DNA of 64,000 nt from an uncultured Clostridia bacterium (GTDB taxonomy: Bacteria; Bacillota; Clostridia; Oscillospirales; Acutalibacteraceae), in NCBI GenBank assembly GCA_947632385.1, contig CANRPD010000001.1:1-64000 (forward strand). The letters run 5' to 3'. Every line of letters begins with the position of its first letter. The first letter of the stretch is position 1. The notes below the pieces were generated by a model. The model worked only from the letters and a program-made list of their open reading frames with translations, had not been told where the DNA came from and ran no database searches. A program made the position numbers and the translations under genes. Positions 1 to 12,195 of the stretch are shown here, piece after piece.

Positions 1-37
1 TTTGGGATGGCCTGAAGATGAGGAGGCGGGCGAATGA
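1..37 (+). CDS. hsdM: Type I restriction-modification methyltransferase subunit (HsdM), 3' end only
   Basis: Frame 2 reads LGWPEDEEAGE* ending at 37, overlapping the hsdS start by ATGA. Identity is inferred only from operon context. Confidence 0.5.
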   Translation, partial: LGWPEDEEAGE

Positions 38-1164
38 CAAGATTGGAGCAACTGATACAAGAGCTTTGCCCGGATGGAGTGGAGACTAAAAAAATCAAGG
101 AAGTTTATATCCGTCTTAAAGGGACACCTATTACTGCCGCAAAAATGAAAGAGATTGAAGAACCCAACGGAGAGGTCAAGGTTTTTGCAGGTGGGAAAAC
201 AGTAATTAATGCTGTGGAATCGAATATTCCTAATGCAAATATCATAAGAGTACCTGCTGTGTTAGTTCAATCACGCGGTGTTATAGATGTTGTATATTAC
301 GATGGCCCCTTTACGTTCAAGAACGAAATGTGGGCATATACTGCACCGAGCGCGGTTTCTGTTAAGTTCCTGTATTATATTTTAAAAAACAACATTTCTA
401 CTTTTCGAGAGATGGCGTCTGGCATGGGTTCTTTGCCACAAATCTCGCTATCGGCTACGGAAGACTTTATAATTCCTGTCCCACCCCTTCCTGTCCAGCA
501 AGAAATCGTCCGTATTCTGGACAATTTCACGGAACTTACAGCGGAACTTACAGCGGAACTTACAGCAAGGAAGAAACAGTATAGCTTTTATATAAATAAA
601 TTATTTGAAAAAGCAAAAGATATTCAAATAACGACATTAGATCAGATTTCAGAAAGCCTCGATAGTCAACGCAAACCTGTAACGAGCGGAAACAGAGAGC
701 CGGGTAATATTCCATACTATGGAGCATCAGGAGTAGTTGACTATGTCAAAGATTATATATTTGATGGTGATTATCTATTGATTTCCGAAGATGGAGCCAA
801 TCTTTTAGCGAGAAGTACGCCCATCGCTTTTTCAATCTCAGGGAAATCTTGGGTTAATAACCATGCTCACGTTTTGAAGTTTAAAGAATATGCAACGAGA
901 AGATATGTAGAAATATATCTCAACTCAATAGATTTATCATACTATATTACAGGCGGAGCGCAACCTAAATTGAATAGGCAAAATATGAATAGAATTCCAA
1001 TCCCATTGCCATCTATTGCCGAACAGCAAAGAATCGTTGCTATCCTTGACCGCTTCGATGCACTTTGCAATGACATAACGAAAGGTCTCCCTGCTGAAAT
1101 TGCTGCACGAAATAAACAGTACGAATATTACCGAGATAAGCTGTTAGATTTCAAGGGCAGGTAG
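34..1164 (+). CDS. hsdS: Type I restriction-modification system specificity subunit (two target recognition domains)
   Basis: MTRLEQLIQELCPDGVE..., repeated 'PxPPLPVQQEIVRILDNF' / 'IPLPSIAEQQRIVAILDRFD' motifs, and a central TAEL repeat. Confidence 0.95.
   Translation: MTRLEQLIQELCPDGVETKKIKEVYIRLKGTPITAAKMKEIEEPNGEVKVFAGGKTVINAVESNIPNANIIRVPAVLVQSRGVIDVVYYDGPFTFKNEMWAYTAPSAVSVKFLYYILKNNISTFREMASGMGSLPQISLSATEDFIIPVPPLPVQQEIVRILDNFTELTAELTAELTARKKQYSFYINKLFEKAKDIQITTLDQISESLDSQRKPVTSGNREPGNIPYYGASGVVDYVKDYIFDGDYLLISEDGANLLARSTPIAFSISGKSWVNNHAHVLKFKEYATRRYVEIYLNSIDLSYYITGGAQPKLNRQNMNRIPIPLPSIAEQQRIVAILDRFDALCNDITKGLPAEIAARNKQYEYYRDKLLDFKGR
532..567 (+). repeat. Three tandem 12-bp repeats (GAACTTACAGCR) encoding (T)AEL-TAEL-TA in the HsdS central linker
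   Basis: gaacttacagcg gaacttacagcg gaacttacagca read directly. Confidence 0.95.
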
Positions 1165-1190
1165 TAAAATCACAAAGAAAGGAAAAAAAC

Positions 1191-2084
1191 ATGTCTCCAT
1201 CTATACAAACATATAATATGGATTTGCTTGACAGAGCTGCAATAGAATCCTTGGTTTGGGAAGCTCTACGAAAAAAGTGGCCACGTGATAGCTATTATTC
1301 CGGCGCTTCCTCTTATAGAGCTGGGTTTAGCGATATATGTATGTCTGTTGCAGAACTTGCCGTCAAGAAGCAGCAGATAATGCCATTAAAGACTCCTGCT
1401 TTTCAGCCATATACAAGAGTTGTATCAGAGGGAGGCCAGCGGCAAATTGCAAGTGTCCTCTGGGCTTTGGTGGCACAGGAGATTCTTTATATTGATATGT
1501 CAGTTAGGAACTCGACGGGTTCTACGATCTTTGCATTTGATATTACAGATTACGGCAAACAGGTAATTGCATCCGAAAAACCCATCCCGCATGATCCTGA
1601 TGGTTATTTATCATATCTCAAAACAGAAATTCCAAGCATTGATGCTACAATCTTGACTTACATTTCGGAGGGGATTAGCGCATATAATCATCGACTATAT
1701 TTGTCTGCGACAATTGCGATTGGCTGTGCATCTGAAAAAGCTTTTCTGCTATTACTTGATTCATATATTGCGTTTTTACAATCTCCAAAGGAAAAAGAAA
1801 GCCTTTCAAAGATAAAAAATCAGATGATTAAGCGTCAATTTGAAGCGTTTACAAAAAGTTTCAATGGCCATCTAAGCGACATAAACAAAGAGTTGACTGA
1901 CGGTATTGACATCGTATTCAATGGGATTTTTGAACTGTTGCGCCAAAACAGAAATAGCGTAGGACATCCTACTGGAAAGGCAATGTCAAGGGAGCAAGTA
2001 TTTGCGTCACTGCAATTATTTGTTACATATTGTAAGCGCATTTACGCATTGATAGATTATTTTGGTCGAGATGAGTTTAGATAA
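1191..2084 (+). CDS. Hypothetical protein with C-terminal HEPN-like R-N-x3-H motif (RNSVGH), inside the type I RM operon
   Basis: 297 aa ORF with RBS aaaggaaaaaaac. Helical C-terminal half with ELLRQNRNSVGHPTG. Lies between hsdS and hsdR on the same strand. Confidence 0.7.
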   Translation: MSPSIQTYNMDLLDRAAIESLVWEALRKKWPRDSYYSGASSYRAGFSDICMSVAELAVKKQQIMPLKTPAFQPYTRVVSEGGQRQIASVLWALVAQEILYIDMSVRNSTGSTIFAFDITDYGKQVIASEKPIPHDPDGYLSYLKTEIPSIDATILTYISEGISAYNHRLYLSATIAIGCASEKAFLLLLDSYIAFLQSPKEKESLSKIKNQMIKRQFEAFTKSFNGHLSDINKELTDGIDIVFNGIFELLRQNRNSVGHPTGKAMSREQVFASLQLFVTYCKRIYALIDYFGRDEFR

Positions 2085-2113
2085 ATTAATGCTGCGCCGT
2101 TGGAGGTATAATT

Positions 2114-5100
2114 ATGAGTTATTTTAACATTGTTTCTCAAAGTGATGAAAGCACCGTTGTAACCGAATATAGGTCTCATGTCAAACGCTCTGACGCCTAC
2201 CAAAGTGAAGCGCAGTTGGAAAAGGAGTTCATACGCCTTCTTGAAGAGTTGGGTTATACATACCTGCCGATTCACAGCGAGGCAGATTTGATTTTTAACC
2301 TCCGGAAACAGCTAGAAAAACTCAACGATTACACGTTCACAGACAGCGAATGGAAGCAATTTTTCTCCAACTGCATTGCTAACAAAAACGATGGAATCGC
2401 GGAAAAGACCCGGCGGATTCAGGAGGACTACGTTCAGGTACTCCATCGGGACAACGGCGCAACCAAAAATATCTATTTGATAGACAAGAAGAATATTCAC
2501 AATAATATTTTACAAGTCATTAACCAATACACTATCTCTAAAAACGATGGTGCAAACTATGATAACCGTTATGACGTGACAGTGCTGGTCAATGGGCTGC
2601 CACTGATTCATATTGAATTGAAACGCCGGGGTGTTCCTATCCGTGAAGCATTTAATCAGATAGACCGCTATCAGCGCGATAGTTTCTGGGCATCCAGTGG
2701 GCTTTATGAATATGTACAAATCTTTGTTATCTCCAACGGCACAAACACTAAGTATTATTCCAATACTACCCGCTTCAATCATATCAATGACAGCAAGTCG
2801 CAGCAAATTAAGAAAGAAAAGACCAGCAACAGTTTTGAATTTACATCCTTCTGGGCAGATGCCAACAACCGGGTGATTCCTGATTTGATTGACTTTACCA
2901 AAACATTCTTTGCTCGGCATACAATCCTTAATATTCTGGCCCGCTACTGTGTCTATACTTCGGAGGGGATGCTTCTTGTCATGCGTCCATACCAGATCGT
3001 GGCCACCGAGCGAATCATTAATCGGATTGAAATTGCAAATAATTACAAAAAATACGGTAGCGTTGTGGGTGGCGGGTATATCTGGCACACTACCGGCAGC
3101 GGGAAAACGCTGACCTCCTTCAAGACAGCGCAACTTGCGTCTCGTTTAGATTATATTGACAAAGTCCTCTTTGTGGTTGATCGAAAAGACTTGGACTACC
3201 AGACCATGAAGGAGTATGATCGTTTTGAAAAAGGGGCGGCCAACAGCAACACCTCCACAGCGGTGCTGAAACGGCAGCTTGAGGACAGCGATTCAAAGAT
3301 TATCATTACAACCATCCAAAAGTTGACCACGTTCATTAAAAAGAATACTGGCCACGAGGTATTTGACAAGCGGGTGGTCATTATTTTCGATGAATGCCAC
3401 CGAAGCCAGTTCGGGGATATGCATTTGGCCATCACCAAGTATTTTAAGAAATATCATCTGTTTGGCTTCACGGGAACGCCCATTTTCGCCATCAATGCCG
3501 GAGTGAGCAGGAAACCAACCTTGCGTACCACAGAGCAGGCTTTCGGTGATCGCCTCCATACCTATACCATTGTTGATGCCATCAACGACAAGAACGTACT
3601 GCCGTTCCGCATAGATTACATCAAGACAATGGATGTGGAACCGGATATTGATGACAAAGAAGTATGGGACATTGACCGCGAAAAAGCATTTCTCGCACCG
3701 GAGCGTGTCTCGCTTGTTACAAAGTACATTCTTGAACACTTTGACCAAAAGACCTATCGCGGAAACAAGACATATACTTACAACGTCCTGCAAAATATAG
3801 CGGAGGTGGCTGTCGCAGACGGACGGGAATCTATTGAGGAAGTAAAACGGAAGCAGCGCATCAGTGGGTTTAATTCCATTTTCGCGGTCTCTTCTGTGGA
3901 GGCGGCAAAGCTCTATTACACTGAGTTCAAACGACAAATGGAGGCTGATCCTACGAAACGGCTGCGTGTTGCCGTGATTTACAGCTATGGTGCCAACGAG
4001 GAAGAAGCAGATGGAATTCTGGATGAGGAAAGCTCCGAGGATACCTCTGCTCTGGACAAAGGATCCCGCGATTTCTTGGAAAAAGCCATTACCGAAGATT
4101 ACGACGCTATGTTCCATACTAACTACGATACATCCTCAGATAAGTTTCAGAATTACTATAAGGATGTATCTCTGCGAATGAAAAACAAGGAGCTCGATTT
4201 GCTCATTGTAGTCAATATGTTTCTTACCGGTTTTGATGCCACTACATTAAATACGCTTTGGGTTGATAAAAATCTCAAAATGCATGGTTTACTCCAAGCG
4301 TTTTCTCGCACCAACCGTATTCTAAATTCTATCAAAACTTTTGGAAATATCGTTTGTTTCCGCAATTTGCAGAAACGGACAGACGATGCAATTTCTCTCT
4401 TCGGCGATAAAGAAGCTGGCGGCATTGTACTGCTTCGCGGATATAACGATTATTACAATGGATTTGAGGATCAAGAGGGGAAGGTGCATCCCGGTTATGC
4501 GGATATGATTTCAGAGCTGATTGGGAAGTTTCCTCTGTCGGAGGACCGCATTGCAGGAGAAAAAAATCAAAAAGATTTTATCGTCTTGTTTGGAACAATT
4601 TTGCGGATGCGGAATCTTCTCTCGTCCTTCGATGAATTTTCCGGGAATGAAATTCTCTCAGAAAGAGATTTACAAGATTATCTTGGAAGGTATCAGGATC
4701 TACGGGATGAGTGGAAAAATCGAAAGCCAACAGGTGCGAAGGAAGATATTACCGATGATATTGTATTTGAAATTGAACTGATTAAGCAAATAGAGATCAA
4801 TATCGACTATATTCTTTTGCTTGTCAAAAAATATCATGACTCCCATTGTGCCGATAAGGAGGTGCTTATCACAATTCAAAAAGCAATCGATGCCAGTTCG
4901 GAACTCCGAAGCAAAAAAGCATTGATTGAAAATTTCATTGCTGGAATAAATGATGTAGATGATGTGATGATAGAATGGAGACAGTACGTTGCTGAAGAAA
5001 AAGAACGGCAACTTTCGGAGATTATCCACGAGGAAAATCTGAAGGAGGAAGAAACGCACCGCTTTATTGAAACCGCATTTCGTGATGGTTCAATCAAGAC

Positions 5101-5230
5101 AACAGGCACCGATTTTGACAAATTGATGCCTCCAATGTCTCGCTTTGGTGGCGGTAATCGTGACGAGAAAAAACAAGGCATTGTTACTAAACTACTCGAT
5201 TTCTTTGACCGTTTCTTTGGCATAGGTTAA
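2114..5230 (+). CDS. hsdR: Type I restriction endonuclease subunit R
   Basis: 1038 aa. N-terminal nuclease region, Walker A 'IWHTTGSGKTLTSF', DEAD-like 'IIFDECHRSQFG', 'FGFTGTPIF', 'TGFDATTLNTLWVDKNL'. Confidence 0.97.
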   Translation: MSYFNIVSQSDESTVVTEYRSHVKRSDAYQSEAQLEKEFIRLLEELGYTYLPIHSEADLIFNLRKQLEKLNDYTFTDSEWKQFFSNCIANKNDGIAEKTRRIQEDYVQVLHRDNGATKNIYLIDKKNIHNNILQVINQYTISKNDGANYDNRYDVTVLVNGLPLIHIELKRRGVPIREAFNQIDRYQRDSFWASSGLYEYVQIFVISNGTNTKYYSNTTRFNHINDSKSQQIKKEKTSNSFEFTSFWADANNRVIPDLIDFTKTFFARHTILNILARYCVYTSEGMLLVMRPYQIVATERIINRIEIANNYKKYGSVVGGGYIWHTTGSGKTLTSFKTAQLASRLDYIDKVLFVVDRKDLDYQTMKEYDRFEKGAANSNTSTAVLKRQLEDSDSKIIITTIQKLTTFIKKNTGHEVFDKRVVIIFDECHRSQFGDMHLAITKYFKKYHLFGFTGTPIFAINAGVSRKPTLRTTEQAFGDRLHTYTIVDAINDKNVLPFRIDYIKTMDVEPDIDDKEVWDIDREKAFLAPERVSLVTKYILEHFDQKTYRGNKTYTYNVLQNIAEVAVADGRESIEEVKRKQRISGFNSIFAVSSVEAAKLYYTEFKRQMEADPTKRLRVAVIYSYGANEEEADGILDEESSEDTSALDKGSRDFLEKAITEDYDAMFHTNYDTSSDKFQNYYKDVSLRMKNKELDLLIVVNMFLTGFDATTLNTLWVDKNLKMHGLLQAFSRTNRILNSIKTFGNIVCFRNLQKRTDDAISLFGDKEAGGIVLLRGYNDYYNGFEDQEGKVHPGYADMISELIGKFPLSEDRIAGEKNQKDFIVLFGTILRMRNLLSSFDEFSGNEILSERDLQDYLGRYQDLRDEWKNRKPTGAKEDITDDIVFEIELIKQIEINIDYILLLVKKYHDSHCADKEVLITIQKAIDASSELRSKKALIENFIAGINDVDDVMIEWRQYVAEEKERQLSEIIHEENLKEEETHRFIETAFRDGSIKTTGTDFDKLMPPMSRFGGGNRDEKKQGIVTKLLDFFDRFFGIG

Positions 5231-5277
5231 TTAAACAAAGAAAACTGTTCAACAGACATTGAGATAAGAATAATCGA

Positions 5278-5315
5278 AACAGCCATACCCGGATCGATTT
5301 CCGAGTATGGCTGTT
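5278..5315 (+). terminator. Stem-loop downstream of hsdR
   Basis: AACAGCCATACCCGGA-tcgatt-TCCGAGTATGGCTGTT, 16-bp near-perfect stem 47 bp after the hsdR stop. Confidence 0.6.
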
Positions 5316-5416
5316 CTCTGTTTTGCACCCCTGTTTGGCAGCTACCCAATGTCAGTACTGTTTCGATACTGTTTTATTGGAAGCTACCTCAGGGGGGCTT
5401 TTTTTTGGGCGAACGC

Positions 5417-5956
5417 TCAATAATTTTCGGCCTTGATCTGGAAATACGCCTGGGGATGGGCGCACACGGGGCAGACCTCCGGGGCCTTTTTGCCCACCAC
5501 GATGTGCCCGCAGTTGGCGCACTGCCACACCTGGTCTCCCTCCCGGGAGAACACCAGCCCGCCTTCCAGGTTGGCCAGCAGCTTGCGGTACCGCTCCTCG
5601 TGCTCCTTCTCGATGGCCGCTACGCCCTCGAACAGCCGGGCGATCTCCTCAAAGCCCTCCTCGTGGGCGGTCTTGGCAAAGCCCGCGTACATGTCGGTCC
5701 ACTCATAATTCTCCCCGGCAGCCGCGTCCTTCAGGTTGTCTGCGGTGCTGCCCACGCCGCCGTTGAGCAGCTTGTACCAGATCTTGGCGTGCTCCTTCTC
5801 GTTGTCGGCGGTCTCCTCAAAGATCTTGGCGATCTGCACGTACCCGTCCTTCTTGGCCTTGGAGGCGAAGTAGGTGTACTTGTTGCGGGCCTGGCTCTCT
5901 CCCGCAAAGGCGGTCAGCAGGTTGGCCTCGGTCTTGCTTCCTTTCAGTTCCGGCAT
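5417..5956 (-). CDS. Rubrerythrin
   Basis: [39 protein letters not shown]... with C-terminal rubredoxin-like CANCG...CPVC. Start set at MPELKG after a GGAGG-type RBS. Confidence 0.95.
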
Positions 5957-6142
5957 GGTGAATGACCTCCTTTTCCGGCCGCGTTTCCCGCGGCGCTTTT
6001 TTTCATTATAGCCCATCCCCCGGGGAAAAGTAAAGGGCTTTCCCTTTCTTTTTTCGTTTTTTTGCCCCCGGGGCTTTCTTTTTTTCCAAGATCGCGCTAT
6101 ACTGAAAAGAGATTCTCACACGAAGAAAGGACGGAGAGTTTC

Positions 6143-6535
6143 ATGTTCCGATGGCTGCAACGGGTCCTGTACGGCCGCTACGGCGGCGACGCTTTCAGTG
6201 TGTTCCTGCTGGTCACAGGCGTGGTGTTTTCCCTGCTGGCGGGGCTGTTTTTCCGTCCCCTGTACCTGGTGGCGGATCTGCTCTACCTGGTGTGCTTCCT
6301 CCGGGCCTTTTCCCGGAACCACGAAGCCCGCCGCCGGGAGAACCAGGCCTTCCTGCGGCTCTGGGAGCCGGTGGCCGGGTGGTTTTCCCGGGTGCGGGCC
6401 TGGTTCCGGAACCACCGGCAGTACAAGTATTTCCGCTGCCCCAACTGCAAGCAGCGCCTGCGGGCGCCCCGCGGCCGGGGCCAGATCGAGGTCACCTGCC
6501 AGCGCTGCCGGCACGTGTTCCGCACCCGGACCTGA
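6143..6535 (+). CDS. Small membrane protein with C-terminal zinc ribbon (CPNC...CQRC)
   Basis: MFRWLQRVLYGRYGGDAF..., two hydrophobic segments then FRCPNCKQRLRAPRGRGQIEVTCQRCRHVF. Confidence 0.75.
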   Translation: MFRWLQRVLYGRYGGDAFSVFLLVTGVVFSLLAGLFFRPLYLVADLLYLVCFLRAFSRNHEARRRENQAFLRLWEPVAGWFSRVRAWFRNHRQYKYFRCPNCKQRLRAPRGRGQIEVTCQRCRHVFRTRT

Positions 6536-6570
6536 ACCGGTCCGGCGAGAGGGAAGAGAGGGGGATCCGT

Positions 6571-7764
6571 ATGCGTCTCAAAGAATTTCGTTCCGGGCTT
6601 TCCCAGCAAAAGCCCACCCTGGCGGCGGGGTCGTTCCTGCTGGTCCTGGGGGCCGTTTTGGCCCTGGTGGTGCTGCATTTTGACCGGGTCCTGGGCTTCG
6701 CCCGGCTGGTGGGCTCGGCCCTGACGCCGCTGCTCTGCGGCCTGGTCATCGCATTCGTGCTCAATGTCTTTGTCCGCTTTTTCGAGGACGTGGCCTTTGC
6801 CCCCCTCAAGCACGTGCAGAACGCCCTGTGGCGCAAGCTCCGCTACCCCCTGTGCGTGGTCCTGGCCTACCTGGTGGTGGTGCTGCTGCTGGCGTTCCTG
6901 GTGGGCTTCATCCTGCCCAGCTTCGTGGACTCCCTCACCGGTCTGGCCGATACCCTCCAGCGCACCCTGCCGGGCACCCTGACCCGGGCGGCAGCCTGGG
7001 CCACCGACTTCGCCAGCCGCCACGACCTGGACTTCCTCATCGACTACCTCCGGGACTTCAACTGGACCTCCCTGCTGGCCCGCATCACGGAATTCACCAC
7101 CGACCTGCTGGGCATGCTGGTGAGCATGACCACCAACGTGGCCTCCGGGGTCTTCACTCTGCTCATGGGTTTCTTCTTCTCAGTGTATATGCTCTTCGGC
7201 AAGCAGCGGCTCCTGGGGGGCATCCGCAGCACCCTGAAGGCCTACCTGCCCGCCTCTGCCGCCGCCCGCCTGCAGACCGTGGGGACGCTGACCAACAAGG
7301 TGTTCTACTCCTTCGTCCGGGGCCAGCTCACCGAGTGCGTCATCCTGGGGGGCCTGTGCTACGCCGGCATGCGCCTGTTGGGCCTGGACTATGCCCTGCT
7401 GATCTCCTCGGTGGTGGCTCTCACCGCCCTGATCCCCATCCTGGGCGCCTACATCGGCTGCGCCACGGGGGTGGTGGTGCTCCTGCTGGTCCACCCCATG
7501 GATGCCCTGGTTTTCCTGGTGTTCCTGGTGGTCCTCCAGCAGGTGGAGGGCAACCTGATCTATCCCCGGGTGGTGGGCTCGTCCATCGGCCTGCCCCCCG
7601 TCTGGACGCTGTTCGCGGTGCTGTTTTGGGGCGGTGTGCTGGGCATTCCCGGCATCATCGTGGGCACGCCGGCCACGGCGGTGCTCTACCGGCTGCTGCG
7701 CACCTCGGTCTATGACCGGCTGGCGGCCCAAAACCCGCCATCTCCGGCCTCGCCGGAAGAATGA
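6571..7764 (+). CDS. AI-2E family transporter (PerM-type membrane protein)
   Basis: MRLKEFRSGLSQQK..., multiple TM segments, 'VEGNLIYPRVVGSSIGLPPVWTLFAVLFWGGVLGIPGIIVGTPATAVLY'. Confidence 0.9.
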   Translation: MRLKEFRSGLSQQKPTLAAGSFLLVLGAVLALVVLHFDRVLGFARLVGSALTPLLCGLVIAFVLNVFVRFFEDVAFAPLKHVQNALWRKLRYPLCVVLAYLVVVLLLAFLVGFILPSFVDSLTGLADTLQRTLPGTLTRAAAWATDFASRHDLDFLIDYLRDFNWTSLLARITEFTTDLLGMLVSMTTNVASGVFTLLMGFFFSVYMLFGKQRLLGGIRSTLKAYLPASAAARLQTVGTLTNKVFYSFVRGQLTECVILGGLCYAGMRLLGLDYALLISSVVALTALIPILGAYIGCATGVVVLLLVHPMDALVFLVFLVVLQQVEGNLIYPRVVGSSIGLPPVWTLFAVLFWGGVLGIPGIIVGTPATAVLYRLLRTSVYDRLAAQNPPSPASPEE

Positions 7765-7781
7765 GGGCTCCACGGCCTTGC

Positions 7782-7871
7782 CCGCGCCCGCCCGGGCCCC
7801 GGTTTTCCGGGGCCCGGGCGCTTTTTGCCCCGCAAAAAGCAGGCCGCCCCAAGGGGGCGGCCTGGGCGCGG
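7782..7871. repeat. Four-way-junction (cloverleaf) intergenic element, copy C1
   Basis: Outer CCGCGCCC/GGGCGCGG; H1 GCCCGGGCCCCGG-tttt-CCGGGGCCCGGGC; H2 GCTTTTTGC-ccc-GCAAAAAGC; H3 AGGCCGCCCC-aag-GGGGCGGCCT. No unpaired bases between stems. Confidence 0.85.
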
Positions 7872-8278
7872 TCCGTCGGCTCCCCGCCGGTTGGGTGGGG
7901 ACTTCCGGCGGGCGCTCAAAAATGCAAATTTTTATACCAGTTCACCAATAATTCATATTTTTTGGTTCGTCTTTTGCATGCGAAAACATATGTGTGTATT
8001 TCTTACCATAACCCACTTTTTGGTAAACTTCTTTCACAAAATAGACCCATTTTTGGGCCGGTCACCGCCCCGGACCCCTCTTTTTGCCGCCAAAGTGCAC
8101 GAACCCCGCTCCTGCCCGGCCCGAACCCCCTTTTTTCGGTCCGGAACCCGTCTCCAGCGAACATCTGCTTTTTCGGTTTTGCCCCTTTTCGGCATCATAA
8201 AGCATCCTTGCTGGGCTTCATCCCACCCGGTCCGCTTCGGCTCGCTCCCCGCCGGCATGTGCGGGTCCCGGGTCCTGC

Positions 8279-8367
8279 CCGCGCCCGCCCGGGCCCCGGT
8301 TTTCCGGGGCCCGGGCGCTTTTTGCCCCGCAAAAAGCAGGCCGCCCCAAAGGGCGGCCTGGGCGCGG
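8279..8367. repeat. Four-way-junction intergenic element, copy C2 (near-identical to C1)
   Basis: Same stems as C1, with H3 AGGCCGCCC-caaa-GGGCGGCCT. Flanked by an additional ggcggctctccgcc hairpin. Confidence 0.85.
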
Positions 8368-8410
8368 TCCGGCGGCTCTCCGCCGACCCGCATTTTTTTG
8401 CAAAACCCCA

Positions 8411-8923
8411 TCACTGGGGCCCGCCGCGGGACTCCAGCTTTTGCAGCACCGGCAAAATGCCCCGGAGCAGCACCCCCGTCAGCAGGCCGGAACCCACCCC
8501 GTAGACCAGCAGCAGCGGCGCATACCCCGCCGCACCGGGCCCGGTGAGGACCACCGCAGCCCCCAGCTGCCCCAGGTTGTGGGCCAGCGCCCCGCCCATG
8601 CCGATCCCGGCGAGAGACGCCCCCCGGAGCCGCCACAGGCCCCAGGTAGCCCCGGCGCTGAGCAGCCCTCCCGCCAGACTCATGCACCCGGCGGCAAAGC
8701 CCCGGGTCAGCAGGGCAAAGGCGCCCTTGATCAGCGCCAAAAACAGCGCAGGCCCAAGCCCCAGGGCCCCGGCGGCGTACATTCCCGCCAGATTGGACAG
8801 CCCCAGCTTGAACCCCGGCGGCACGCCGGGCAGCGGCGGCACCAGCCCCTCCAGGAAGGAGAGGGCCAGGGCCAGCGCCCCCAGCACGCCCACCCGGGCG
8901 ACGGTCCCAGTCGTGTGTTTCAT
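8411..8923 (-). CDS. Gx transporter family protein / heptaprenyl diphosphate synthase component I-like
   Basis: MKHTTGTVARVGVLGALALALSFLEGLVPPLPGVPPGFKLGLSNLAGMYA...; start at cat 8921-8923 with AGGAAAACC upstream. Confidence 0.85.
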   Translation of the reverse strand: MKHTTGTVARVGVLGALALALSFLEGLVPPLPGVPPGFKLGLSNLAGMYAAGALGLGPALFLALIKGAFALLTRGFAAGCMSLAGGLLSAGATWGLWRLRGASLAGIGMGGALAHNLGQLGAAVVLTGPGAAGYAPLLLVYGVGSGLLTGVLLRGILPVLQKLESRGGPQ

Positions 8924-8955
8924 GTGGTTTTCCTCCCCTTTGGCGGACGCCGCGG

Positions 8956-9041
8956 CCCGCCCCGCGCCTGCGGCCTGCGGCCGCGGGCTCCCCCCCAGGG
9001 AGAGCCCCGGGCCGGGCGAAGCCCGGCCGGCGCGGGGCCGG
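8956..9041. repeat. Possible divergent member of the four-way-junction family (C9), without the T-rich middle hairpin
   Basis: Outer CCCGCCCCGCGCC/GGCGCGGGGCCGG (12/13 paired); GCGGCC-tgc-GGCCGC; GGCTC...GAGCC; GGCCGGGC-gaa-GCCCGGCC. Confidence 0.5.
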
Positions 9042-9048
9042 CCCGGCG

Positions 9049-9426
9049 CTAGAACGTCACCGCGTCCGGCCCGCCGGCCCCCTCCAGCCGCAGGGAGATC
9101 CGGCTGGGCAGGCACACCGCCGCCTCTCCGGCCCGGGTGAGCTCCCCCGTGCCCACGCACACCTGGTCCGGGCACTCCGCCGCGGAGATCCGCGCCCCCT
9201 GGGGGGACAGCACCACCGTCACCCGGCGGCCCTCCTCTCCGGCAAACCGGTATTCCGTCTCCCCGGAAAGGGCGCTCAGCTCCTGCCGCAGGAGCACCCG
9301 GTCGCCCCATTCCACCACGGCCACCGCGCCTTTGGGCGCGGAAAGGGTCCGCAAAAACAGCGCCCCCGCCACCGCCAGCACCGCCAGGATGCCCACCGCA
9401 TCCCATCGGGAAAACAGCCGCCTCAT
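9049..9426 (-). CDS. NusG domain II-containing protein
   Basis: MRRLFSRWDAVGILAVLAVAGALFL... 'AECPDQVCVGTG...AAVCLPSRISLRLEG'. ATGA overlap with the upstream apbE-like gene. Confidence 0.85.
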   Translation of the reverse strand: MRRLFSRWDAVGILAVLAVAGALFLRTLSAPKGAVAVVEWGDRVLLRQELSALSGETEYRFAGEEGRRVTVVLSPQGARISAAECPDQVCVGTGELTRAGEAAVCLPSRISLRLEGAGGPDAVTF

Positions 9427-10484
9427 GCCAGCGCCTCCCGGCGGTACCCCGCCGCCGTGCAGGTGAAGGCTGCCTCCAGCCCCGGGGTCACCAGCACCCG
9501 ATCGTCCTGGGTGACGAACACCCCGCCGGCCCCAAATGCCGCCAGCAGCTCCGCGCCCCGTTCCGCCCCCAGCACGAAGCACGCCGTGGAAAGCCCGTCG
9601 CTCAGCGCCCCGCTCTCCGCCGTCACCGTCACGGAGACCAGCCCGCTCTCCGCCGGGAACCCGGTGGCGGGGTCCAGCAGGTGGTGATACGTCCGCCCCT
9701 CCTGGGTGAAGGTCTTCTCGTAGCTCCCCGAGGTGGACACGAACCCCTCCGACAGCCGCAGTTCTCCCAGCACGCCGCCCTTGGGGTCCCGGATGGCCAC
9801 CACCCAGGGGGCGCCCCCGGGCTTTTCCCCGAAAAGCCCCACGCTGCCCCCCACGGTGACTACGCCCCGGGTCACCCCCGTTTCCCGGTAGACCGCCGCT
9901 GCGGCGTCACAGGCGGCGCCTTTGCCCACCGCCCCCAGGTCCACCCGGGCACCGGGTGTGTCCAGCCGGGCGGTCCCGGCCGAAAGCACCAGCCCCGCCG
10001 GGTCCGCCGTTTCCAGCGCCTGGGCCAGCTCCCCGGCCTGGGGCACGCGGGGGGACCCATCGAAGTCCCACAACCGGGTCACCGCCCCCAGCGTCACGTC
10101 CAGCGCCCCGCCGGAGGCCGCCCCCACGGCGGCGGCCTGCTCCAGCACCGCAGCCGTCTCCAGGGATAACTCCACCACCTTGCCGGTGCCCGCCGTCTCG
10201 TTGAGCCGGGCGATCTCGCTGTCCGCCACCCGCCAGGAGATACGGTTCTCCAGGGCCGTCACGGCCTGGGCCGCCCGGGCGGCGGCGTCGGGGGCTCCGC
10301 CCCACACCTGCTGCCGCACCTGGGACCCCATGGCGAAGGTGTTGAGCTGGGTCTCCCGGCCACCCATCCAGGCTCGGATCCCCAGCCACAGCCCCGCCAG
10401 CAGGACGCAGGCCCCCAGGCAGAGCCCCCACCGGCGCAGGGAGCTCCCCCGAGAAGAGGCAGATTTTGAGGCGGTGGATTTCAT
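9423..10484 (-). CDS. apbE: FAD:protein FMN transferase (ApbE family)
   Basis: 'FAMGSQVRQQVWG', 'LGAVGKGAACDAAAAVYRETGV', 'VTVGGSVGLFGEKPGGAPWVVAIRDP', 'FVSTSGSYEKTF...YHHLLDPATGFPA'. Start at cat 10482-10484. Confidence 0.95.
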   Translation of the reverse strand: MKSTASKSASSRGSSLRRWGLCLGACVLLAGLWLGIRAWMGGRETQLNTFAMGSQVRQQVWGGAPDAAARAAQAVTALENRISWRVADSEIARLNETAGTGKVVELSLETAAVLEQAAAVGAASGGALDVTLGAVTRLWDFDGSPRVPQAGELAQALETADPAGLVLSAGTARLDTPGARVDLGAVGKGAACDAAAAVYRETGVTRGVVTVGGSVGLFGEKPGGAPWVVAIRDPKGGVLGELRLSEGFVSTSGSYEKTFTQEGRTYHHLLDPATGFPAESGLVSVTVTAESGALSDGLSTACFVLGAERGAELLAAFGAGGVFVTQDDRVLVTPGLEAAFTCTAAGYRREALA

Positions 10485-10499
10485 GGGATCACGCTCCGG

Positions 10500-10946
10500 A
10501 AATATGAACAAATTGTAAATTTTCAAAAATTTTCGAAAAAGTTTCCCTTTCGAGGGAAATTTTACCCCTTTTAAGGGGGGATATATGGGAGGACTTTTTG
10601 TCTGTGCCCAGACGGGCCAAGTCGCGGTCCGTGCCCGGACTGGCCAGTGTCGCAGGCCAGCACCTACTGGAAAAAAGCGAGTAGTCGCGCCCACCGGTTT
10701 CCAGTTTCCGCAAACCTTTCCAGCGAAAACCGCCAACCTGCACGGACCCCGCCAAAATGGCCGGTTTTCCAGCTGCAGACCGCTCAATTGTGCCCCCGAC
10801 CCAGCCGGGACCCAACTTTGCCCCACCGAAAAAAACATCTGGCCCGCCCCGCCCGCCTCCCCCGTCTCGCCGCCTGCCTGCGGCAGGCGCTTTTGCTCCG
10901 CAAAAGGGGGCGCGGGACAAGCCCGGTCCCGCGCCCTGCGAGACGG
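10500..10946. repeat. Composite long repeat element LE-A (AT-rich hairpin block, GC-rich block, four-way junction)
   Basis: Collinear with 60977-61434: both start AATATGAACAAATTGTAAATTTT, share AAGTTTCCCTnnnnAGGGAAAnTTTACCCCTTTTAA...GGGATATATGGGAGGACTTTT, and end with the GTCTCGCCG...GCGAGACGG junction. Confidence 0.8.
10862..10946. repeat. Four-way-junction intergenic element, copy C3
   Basis: Outer CCGTCTCGC/GCGAGACGG; H1 CGCCTGCC-tgc-GGCAGGCG; H2 CTTTTGC-tcc-GCAAAAG; H3 GGGGCGCGGGAC-aagcccg-GTCCCGCGCCCT. Confidence 0.88.
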
Positions 10947-11068
10947 CAGCCGGTGGCCCGGCAGGCCAAGTCGCGGTCCGTGCCCGGACGGGGCAAGTCG
11001 CGGCCCCTGCCGGGGCGGGGCAAGTCGCGCATTGGTTTCTGCAAACCCCAAGAGAGTAGTCGCGCCCG

Positions 11069-11310
11069 TCGATCTGCAAAAGGCGCGAACCCGTCCCCAG
11101 CGGGTCAAAAACCCCTCTGGACGTGCACGAAGGCCGCAAAAACCCCTTCCAAACGGTCCGTGGCCGGACGGGCCAAGTCGCGGGCCAGAGCCTACTGGCC
11201 GAAAATGGGTCGTCGCGCCCGAGAGTCTGCAAAAGGCGCGAACCCGTCCCCAGCGGGTCAAAAGTCCCTCTGAACGTGCACGAAGGCCGCAAAAACCCCT
11301 TCCAAACCTG
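11069..11310. repeat. Direct repeat pair (~90 bp each) in the apbE / cytidylate kinase-like intergenic region
   Basis: tctgcaaaaggcgcgaacccgtccccagcgggtcaaaa..ccctctg.acgtgcacgaaggccgcaaaaaccccttccaaac occurs near 11070 and again near 11228. Confidence 0.85.
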
Positions 11311-11370
11311 CCCGGGGGCAAACACAAAGCAGGAGAGCCGGGGCTCTCCTGCCAACGGGGTGGGCAAGGG

Positions 11371-11988
11371 TCACTTGTCCAGCTTCTGGGCGGCGTCGAT
11401 GACCAGGTCCACGGCGCGCTGCATGCCGAACCGGGTGGTGTCGATGACCAGGTTGTAGTTGTTCACGTCCTCCCAGCGGCGGTTGGTGTAGAAGTTGTAG
11501 TAATTCCCCCGCTGTTTGTCCTTTTTCTGCACGAAATCCGGGGCTTTTTTCCGGTCACACAGCTCCTTGGAGACGATGCGCTCCACCCGGGCGGCCTTGT
11601 CGCCCCGGACGAAGATGGACAGCACGTTGGGGAACTCCCGGAGGATGTAGTCCGCGCAGCGGCCCACGATGACGCAGGGGCCCTTGTTGGCGGCGTTTTT
11701 GATGATCTCCGACTGGACCAGGAACAGCTTGTCGTTCAGCGGCATGTCTCCCACGCCGGAGACCCGGTGGGCGAAGCCGTAGTTGCCCATGACCATGGAG
11801 TACAGCAGGCTGTTGGTGGCCCGCTCGTCCGCGTGGGCAAAGACCTCCTCGGAGAAGCCGCTCTCCTTGGCGGCCATGGCGATGAGCGCCTTGTCGTAGT
11901 AGGGGATCTGCAGGGCCTCGGCCACTTTTTCGCCCAGCTCGTGGCCGCCGCTGCCATACTGACGTGCAATGGTGATGACCGGTAACAT
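11371..11988 (-). CDS. Cytidylate kinase-like family protein
   Basis: MLPVITIARQYGSGGHELGEKVAEALQIPYYDKALIAMAAKESGF... 'VIVGRCADYIL'. Confidence 0.92.
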   Translation of the reverse strand: MLPVITIARQYGSGGHELGEKVAEALQIPYYDKALIAMAAKESGFSEEVFAHADERATNSLLYSMVMGNYGFAHRVSGVGDMPLNDKLFLVQSEIIKNAANKGPCVIVGRCADYILREFPNVLSIFVRGDKAARVERIVSKELCDRKKAPDFVQKKDKQRGNYYNFYTNRRWEDVNNYNLVIDTTRFGMQRAVDLVIDAAQKLDK

Positions 11989-12195
11989 GAAGATTCCTCC
12001 TTGTGTATTGCTTGCCCGGCGGCGGGCCGCCCGGGTTTTTAGTGACGGGACAGGGGAAGCCCAGGGCCCAAAGGCCCCATCTTCCTGGTCCTATTGTACA
12101 CCGGAACGGGGGGATTGTCAAGGTTTTCCGGGGGTTTGGGGCGCCTCCGCCGGGGGGAAAATGCCCCGGGGCGGGGGGCGGGCGCCGGGGGCCCC

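Follow-up and report, generated by a model that had tools for sequence, protein, structure and literature searches.

The window, the 64,000-nucleotide stretch of DNA analysed here, opens on a restriction-modification (RM) operon in which a gene for a 297-aa protein lies between hsdS and hsdR. The features of this region, in window coordinates, are as follows.

34..1164, + strand: hsdS, type I specificity subunit, 376 aa (Pfam Methylase_S, E 1.1e-45)
Residues 169 and 173 of HsdS: two TAEL repeats, a type IC hallmark
1180..1183, + strand: AGGA, resembling a ribosome-binding site, 5' of the 297-aa gene (sequence)
1191..2084, + strand: intact gene with ATG start for the 297-aa protein, a predicted winged helix-HEPN (wHTH-HEPN) protein
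1233..1571, + strand: N-terminal winged-helix domain, PadR/MarR-like, residues about 15-127 (AlphaFold, Foldseek, weak AdcR profile match)
1581..2081, + strand: C-terminal helical HEPN-like domain, residues 131-297 (AlphaFold, Foldseek, hhalign, weak HEPN-clan Pfam matches in family members)
1950..1967, + strand: R254-N-S-V-G-H259, the predicted catalytic RNxxxH motif (sequence, conservation)
2102..2106, + strand: GGAGG, resembling a ribosome-binding site, 5' of hsdR (sequence)
2114..5230, + strand: hsdR, type IC-like restriction subunit, 1038 aa (Pfam HSDR_N, SWI2_SNF2 and EcoR124_C; PADLOC REase_I)
5277..5316, - strand: strong inverted repeat of 17 pairs, terminator-like, closing the operon region

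All three genes are co-directional, with gaps of 27 bp between hsdS and the 297-aa gene and 30 bp between the 297-aa gene and hsdR. The HSDR_N, SWI2_SNF2 and EcoR124_C matches in HsdR reach E-values down to 1e-69. TAEL repeats and EcoR124_C are features of type IC enzymes (PMC3874165), and the RM system of the window is, judged by its sequence, type IC-like, the class to which PrrC belongs. As window base 1 is also the first base of the contig, hsdM lies outside the view, and a search of the rest of the assembly using HsdM from a sister operon as the query returned none; the RM system is therefore visible in part only. GC content is 39-47% across the RM operon (1-5230) versus 63-75% in the downstream DNA (5400-12000), a contrast that may stem from horizontal transfer or from a chimeric end of the contig.

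An earlier note on this DNA had drawn attention to an R-N-x3-H motif in the open reading frame between hsdS and hsdR, and the intact frame at 1191-2084 does encode it, with R254-N255-x3-H259 contained in the sequence ELLRQNRNSVGHPTG. Searches of genome, plasmid, viral and GTDB contig collections recovered about 78 related loci from many bacterial phyla and from archaea, while no close relatives were found in 60 genomes ranging from the same genus up to the same order, and none in the phage collection. In an alignment of 67 members, with identities down to 16%, Y157, E160, G178, E182, R251, R254 and N255 are invariant, as are G258, H259, P260, T261 and G262. The invariance of RN..GHPTG is partly by construction, because this pattern itself was used to search the GTDB contig collection from which most relatives came. 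R251, Y157, E160, G178 and E182 lay outside the search pattern and are nevertheless invariant in the 67 relatives, which places the conservation beyond chance. In addition, all relatives returned by motif-free searches carry the motif, alongside one weak match (G674) with RNLIHP, and G114, a relative recovered with the whole protein as query, has lost GHPTG and kept the R, N and H. Conservation of these three residues among homologues is thus seen in the 67 relatives, subject to their selection bias, and also in G114 and in the relatives from the motif-free searches.

An AlphaFold model of the full-length protein, built with the family alignment, has a mean pLDDT of 91.5 and consists of an N-terminal winged helix followed by a C-terminal helical domain; the motif sits directly past a helix end in this model. 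The earlier note had placed the motif at the end of a helical domain and had missed the winged helix. Foldseek matched the winged helix to PadR-family structures (probability up to 1.00, target TM 0.5-0.6), and profile comparison gave a weak match to AdcR. Because these winged-helix matches dominated the Foldseek results for the full-length model, the C-terminal domain (residues 131-297) was also modelled by itself, yielding a helical bundle with a pLDDT of 95.7. Among the PDB matches listed for this domain, only 2q00 (probability 1.00, target TM 0.75) and 2hsb (probability 0.99, TM 0.66) exceeded a probability of 0.9. Their E-values are weak (0.4 and 0.8), as they are for the majority of small helical folds, and decoys of the vinculin type had similar E-values with lower probability. 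Both 2q00 and 2hsb are classed as HEPN (PMC3710099).

The domain accordingly shows the helical fold of HEPN proteins, with the weak E-values noted, together with an Rx4-6H motif in which a polar residue follows the arginine (R254-N255-x3-H259) and a second conserved acidic position (often Ex3[KR] in HEPN proteins), represented by E160 and E182 with the exact Ex3K not conserved. Direct profile comparison by hhalign, using DUF4145 domains fused to HsdR-like proteins from bacteria of the window's order, paired LLRQNRNSVGHPTGK with the DUF4145 motif LIRTLGNRAAH (P 1.2e-5, probability 81%), so that the R-x3-N-x3-H motif of DUF4145 (PF13643) and its flanks align with the window protein. Weak DUF4145 Pfam matches were present in 24 of the 67 members, and other members weakly matched RNase L, HEPN_Apea, Ymh, HEPN_Swt1 or RiboL-PSP, all of which, like DUF4145, are treated as HEPN (PMC3710099). 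Taken together, the fold, the profile comparison and the invariant residues make it very probable that the C-terminal domain belongs to HEPN, as the earlier note had proposed. The protein differs from DUF4145 in that the latter is often fused to HsdR, whereas here the domain is in a separate gene with a different N-terminus, and in an extra arginine (R254) that gives Rx4H. The DUF4145 gathering cut-off of Pfam was not reached, with no match for the window protein and E 0.0012 for the best member.

No model in Pfam, NCBIfam, PADLOC, PHROGs or the PDB sequences covers the window protein. A TIGR03907 match at E 0.057 was dismissed as noise. As the annotation libraries searched hold no model for it, the family has likely been missed in defence surveys. 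The literature search found no paper describing wHTH-HEPN proteins from RM operons, nor one for 'Dandelion' (PDB 9wxf/9wx2), to which there was a weak profile match. HEPN proteins in RM operons are as such already known, with at least 16 linked clades (PMC3710099); neither the libraries nor the papers searched contained this family, the combination of a winged helix with HEPN that it shows, or its occurrence in the PrrC slot. RloC, AbiU2, AbiJ, Abi2, ApeA and Ymh are likewise HEPN proteins that occur occasionally in type I or III RM operons and are otherwise solitary (PMC3710099), but the window protein has no sequence-level membership in any of them and combines wHTH with HEPN.

The hsdS-hsdR junction was read in a sister set of 20 operons with related HsdR. 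It is empty in 15, where hsdS leads directly into hsdR, and filled in the other five. Two operons hold a true PrrC there (E 2e-125 and 3e-95), both with a Walker A motif and an R-x3-E...H triad. One holds Fic (E 2.5e-10) and one a 220-aa ORF without recognised identity, while the operon whose HsdR is most similar (83% identity) has Stk2 beside hsdR (E 8e-201) on a contig that stops before hsdS. In two further sister operons, RhuM is found between hsdM and hsdS. The sister type IC operons L132, L135, L117, L120, L119 and L133 thus display a variable cargo slot with PrrC, Stk2, Fic and RhuM. As sister operons hold PrrC, Stk2, Fic or the 220-aa ORF at this point, the window gene sits in a recognised cargo position. 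DarTG2, a self-standing defence module, has also been located at the hsdS-hsdR junction, which may be a hotspot (PMC12255303); it is a two-gene toxin-antitoxin system, whereas the window has one gene of another fold.

The resemblance to PrrC is one of position and superfamily. PrrC is a HEPN-superfamily nuclease and the window protein a predicted one, both in the hsdS-hsdR slot of a type IC operon, and the type IC embedding is seen here in the TAEL repeats of HsdS and the EcoR124_C domain of HsdR, with hsdM not in the assembly. PrrC has an N-terminal ABC ATPase with Walker A, where the window protein has a winged helix; in agreement with the prior description, the protein contains no Walker A and matches no ATPase family. 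The anticodon nuclease triad R-x3-E-x(about 31-52)-H is absent from the C-terminal domain, its sole match starting at residue 76 in the N-terminal domain, and the protein instead carries RN-x3-H and belongs to a family that extends beyond RM loci. Identity as PrrC was therefore rejected on the lack of both the ATPase and the PrrC triad, consistent with the distinction from PrrC already suggested.

The gene order, which the earlier note had proposed to look for elsewhere, recurs in other genomes. One distant relative (L014/G645) lies in an hsdM...hsdS-X-hsdR operon with a HindI-like HsdR, where X denotes the HEPN-protein gene, and others are found in a type III mod-X-res operon (L081), in an X-mod-res arrangement (L023), beside a divergent type I RM gene (L063) and, at a distance of two genes, near a type III res (L039). 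Immediate RM adjacency was observed at 5 of 78 loci versus 0.13 expected (P 2.6e-7), an expectation based on at most 183 HsdR or N6-N4-methylase matches in 50 host genomes; the window was chosen for RM adjacency itself, and leaving it out gives 4 of 77 and a P of about 1e-5, calculated by hand. The six RM-linked copies, L039 counted, fall on six separate branches and involve both type I and type III systems, a scatter on which a single origin was rejected. About 90% of relatives have no RM linkage. The three nearest relatives (L016, L017 and L018, 55-58% identity) all lie near a protein of roughly 2120 aa: in L016 (1595-8906) this is an Avs3 (E 2.4e-158) whose gene overlaps the HEPN-protein gene, and in L018 one gene lies between the Avs3-like protein and the HEPN-protein gene, as it does in L017, there with a split frame. 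The extra gene between the HEPN gene and the Avs3-like gene in L017 and L018 encodes 362-415 aa, and that of L017 had no Pfam or PADLOC match. Other neighbours include bSEFIR/TIR (L008, L079), HmaC (L013), GmrSD (L080) and PIN genes, and many relatives have no recognised defence neighbour within about 8 kb, many being solitary and adjoining unrelated genes.

The reading we favour, with about even confidence, is that the gene encodes a portable wHTH-HEPN ribonuclease defence effector carried as cargo at the hsdS-hsdR junction of a type IC RM system. Its basis is an intact gene, two domains, a HEPN-like fold, an invariant RN-x3-H/E/Y/R set, equivalence to the PrrC slot and recurrent defence linkage. 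From these we infer that the protein is an RNase, that it is kept latent, that its outcome is abortive and that its trigger is independent of one particular RM enzyme. The C-terminal HEPN domain would cut RNA and would stay latent until switched on, either by the N-terminal winged helix through nucleic-acid or ligand sensing or by a neighbouring sensor. Because the most distant clade (e.g. L014) seemingly does not share the winged helix, this domain would not be a universal trigger. The gene may have been dropped as cargo into a junction that in related operons takes second-line toxins (PrrC, Stk2, Fic), and once a phage is past restriction, growth would stop as a HEPN dimer cuts RNA of the cell or of the phage.

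PrrC itself suggests a tighter coupling, in which HsdMSR would bind and silence the HEPN protein and would release it once the RM enzyme was disabled, either by an anti-restriction protein of a phage or by loss of modification. Silencing of this kind by the RM complex is possible, and as the full explanation of the locus we regard it as tentative. PrrC is invariably linked to type IC systems, and EcoprrI silences it (PMC2610378); the window gene has the type IC hallmarks, sits precisely where PrrC does within an hsdR clade that includes two sister operons with true PrrC, and is tightly packed with its co-directional neighbours. The recurrence of RM embedding on separate branches, including type III mod-X-res, and the adjacency above expectation also fit. 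Against this coupling, about nine tenths of the family are RM-free, the RM partners are mutually unrelated (EcoR124_C type IC, HindI-like HsdR, type III), the three closest relatives adjoin or lie near Avs3, the ATPase and triad of PrrC are lacking, and Stk2 and Fic also occupy the slot.

A regulatory or non-catalytic RNA-binding subunit, with the winged helix on the operon promoter or on RNA and the HEPN-like part dimerising or sensing, would suit the PadR/MarR-like domain and has parallels in inactive HEPN families (MtlR, nucleotidyltransferase partners; PMC3710099). This appears improbable, as members from different phyla all retain the complete R-N-x3-H set together with E and Y, unlike inactive HEPNs, the distant clade keeps the motif and RM embedding seemingly without the winged helix, and the gene follows hsdS instead of preceding the operon. 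That the gene is a mobile orphan that landed in the operon by chance, functionally unconnected with restriction or defence, agrees with the many solitary relatives but is similarly unlikely given RM adjacency far above expectation even without the window and the frequent defence genes among neighbours in other genomes.

Beyond the portable effector itself, we suggest, with considerable reserve, that the relatives form an uncatalogued broad HEPN ribonuclease family whose members serve interchangeably with unrelated machines for sensing phage, namely restriction enzymes of types I and III, Avs3, SEFIR/TIR and Hma. What arms the toxin would then differ between genomes, being the failure of restriction in one and a STAND sensor in the next. 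To our knowledge, HEPN nucleases guarding restriction systems comprise essentially one worked example, PrrC. The window protein offers an independent, ATPase-free family in the PrrC slot of the same RM class, so it can be asked whether RM guarding needs the ATPase of PrrC or is a property of the slot. The slot states (empty, PrrC, Stk2, Fic and the window gene) provide natural controls that differ mainly in cargo.

Several further arrangements were observed among the relatives. A two-gene cassette is conserved in L049, L052, L053, L057, L058 and L059, where the HEPN gene has an ATGA overlap with a gene for a 456-500-aa protein that has no credible Pfam match. At the distant loci L012 (1391-1981) and L005 (1381-2268), a protein resembling an Ntn-hydrolase or proteasome subunit by eye, with no credible Pfam match, is encoded 14-47 bp 3' of the HEPN gene. 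L008 (2957-4698) has a 143-aa HEPN-like ORF in two identical copies beside the SEFIR gene with an N run close by, which reflects either a duplication or an assembly artefact. Finally, L142-L152, from the window's order, encode proteins of roughly 1100 aa that we interpret as HsdR-like and that carry DUF4145 (HEPN) fused N-terminally, and we read these fusions as the counterpart of the separate window gene.
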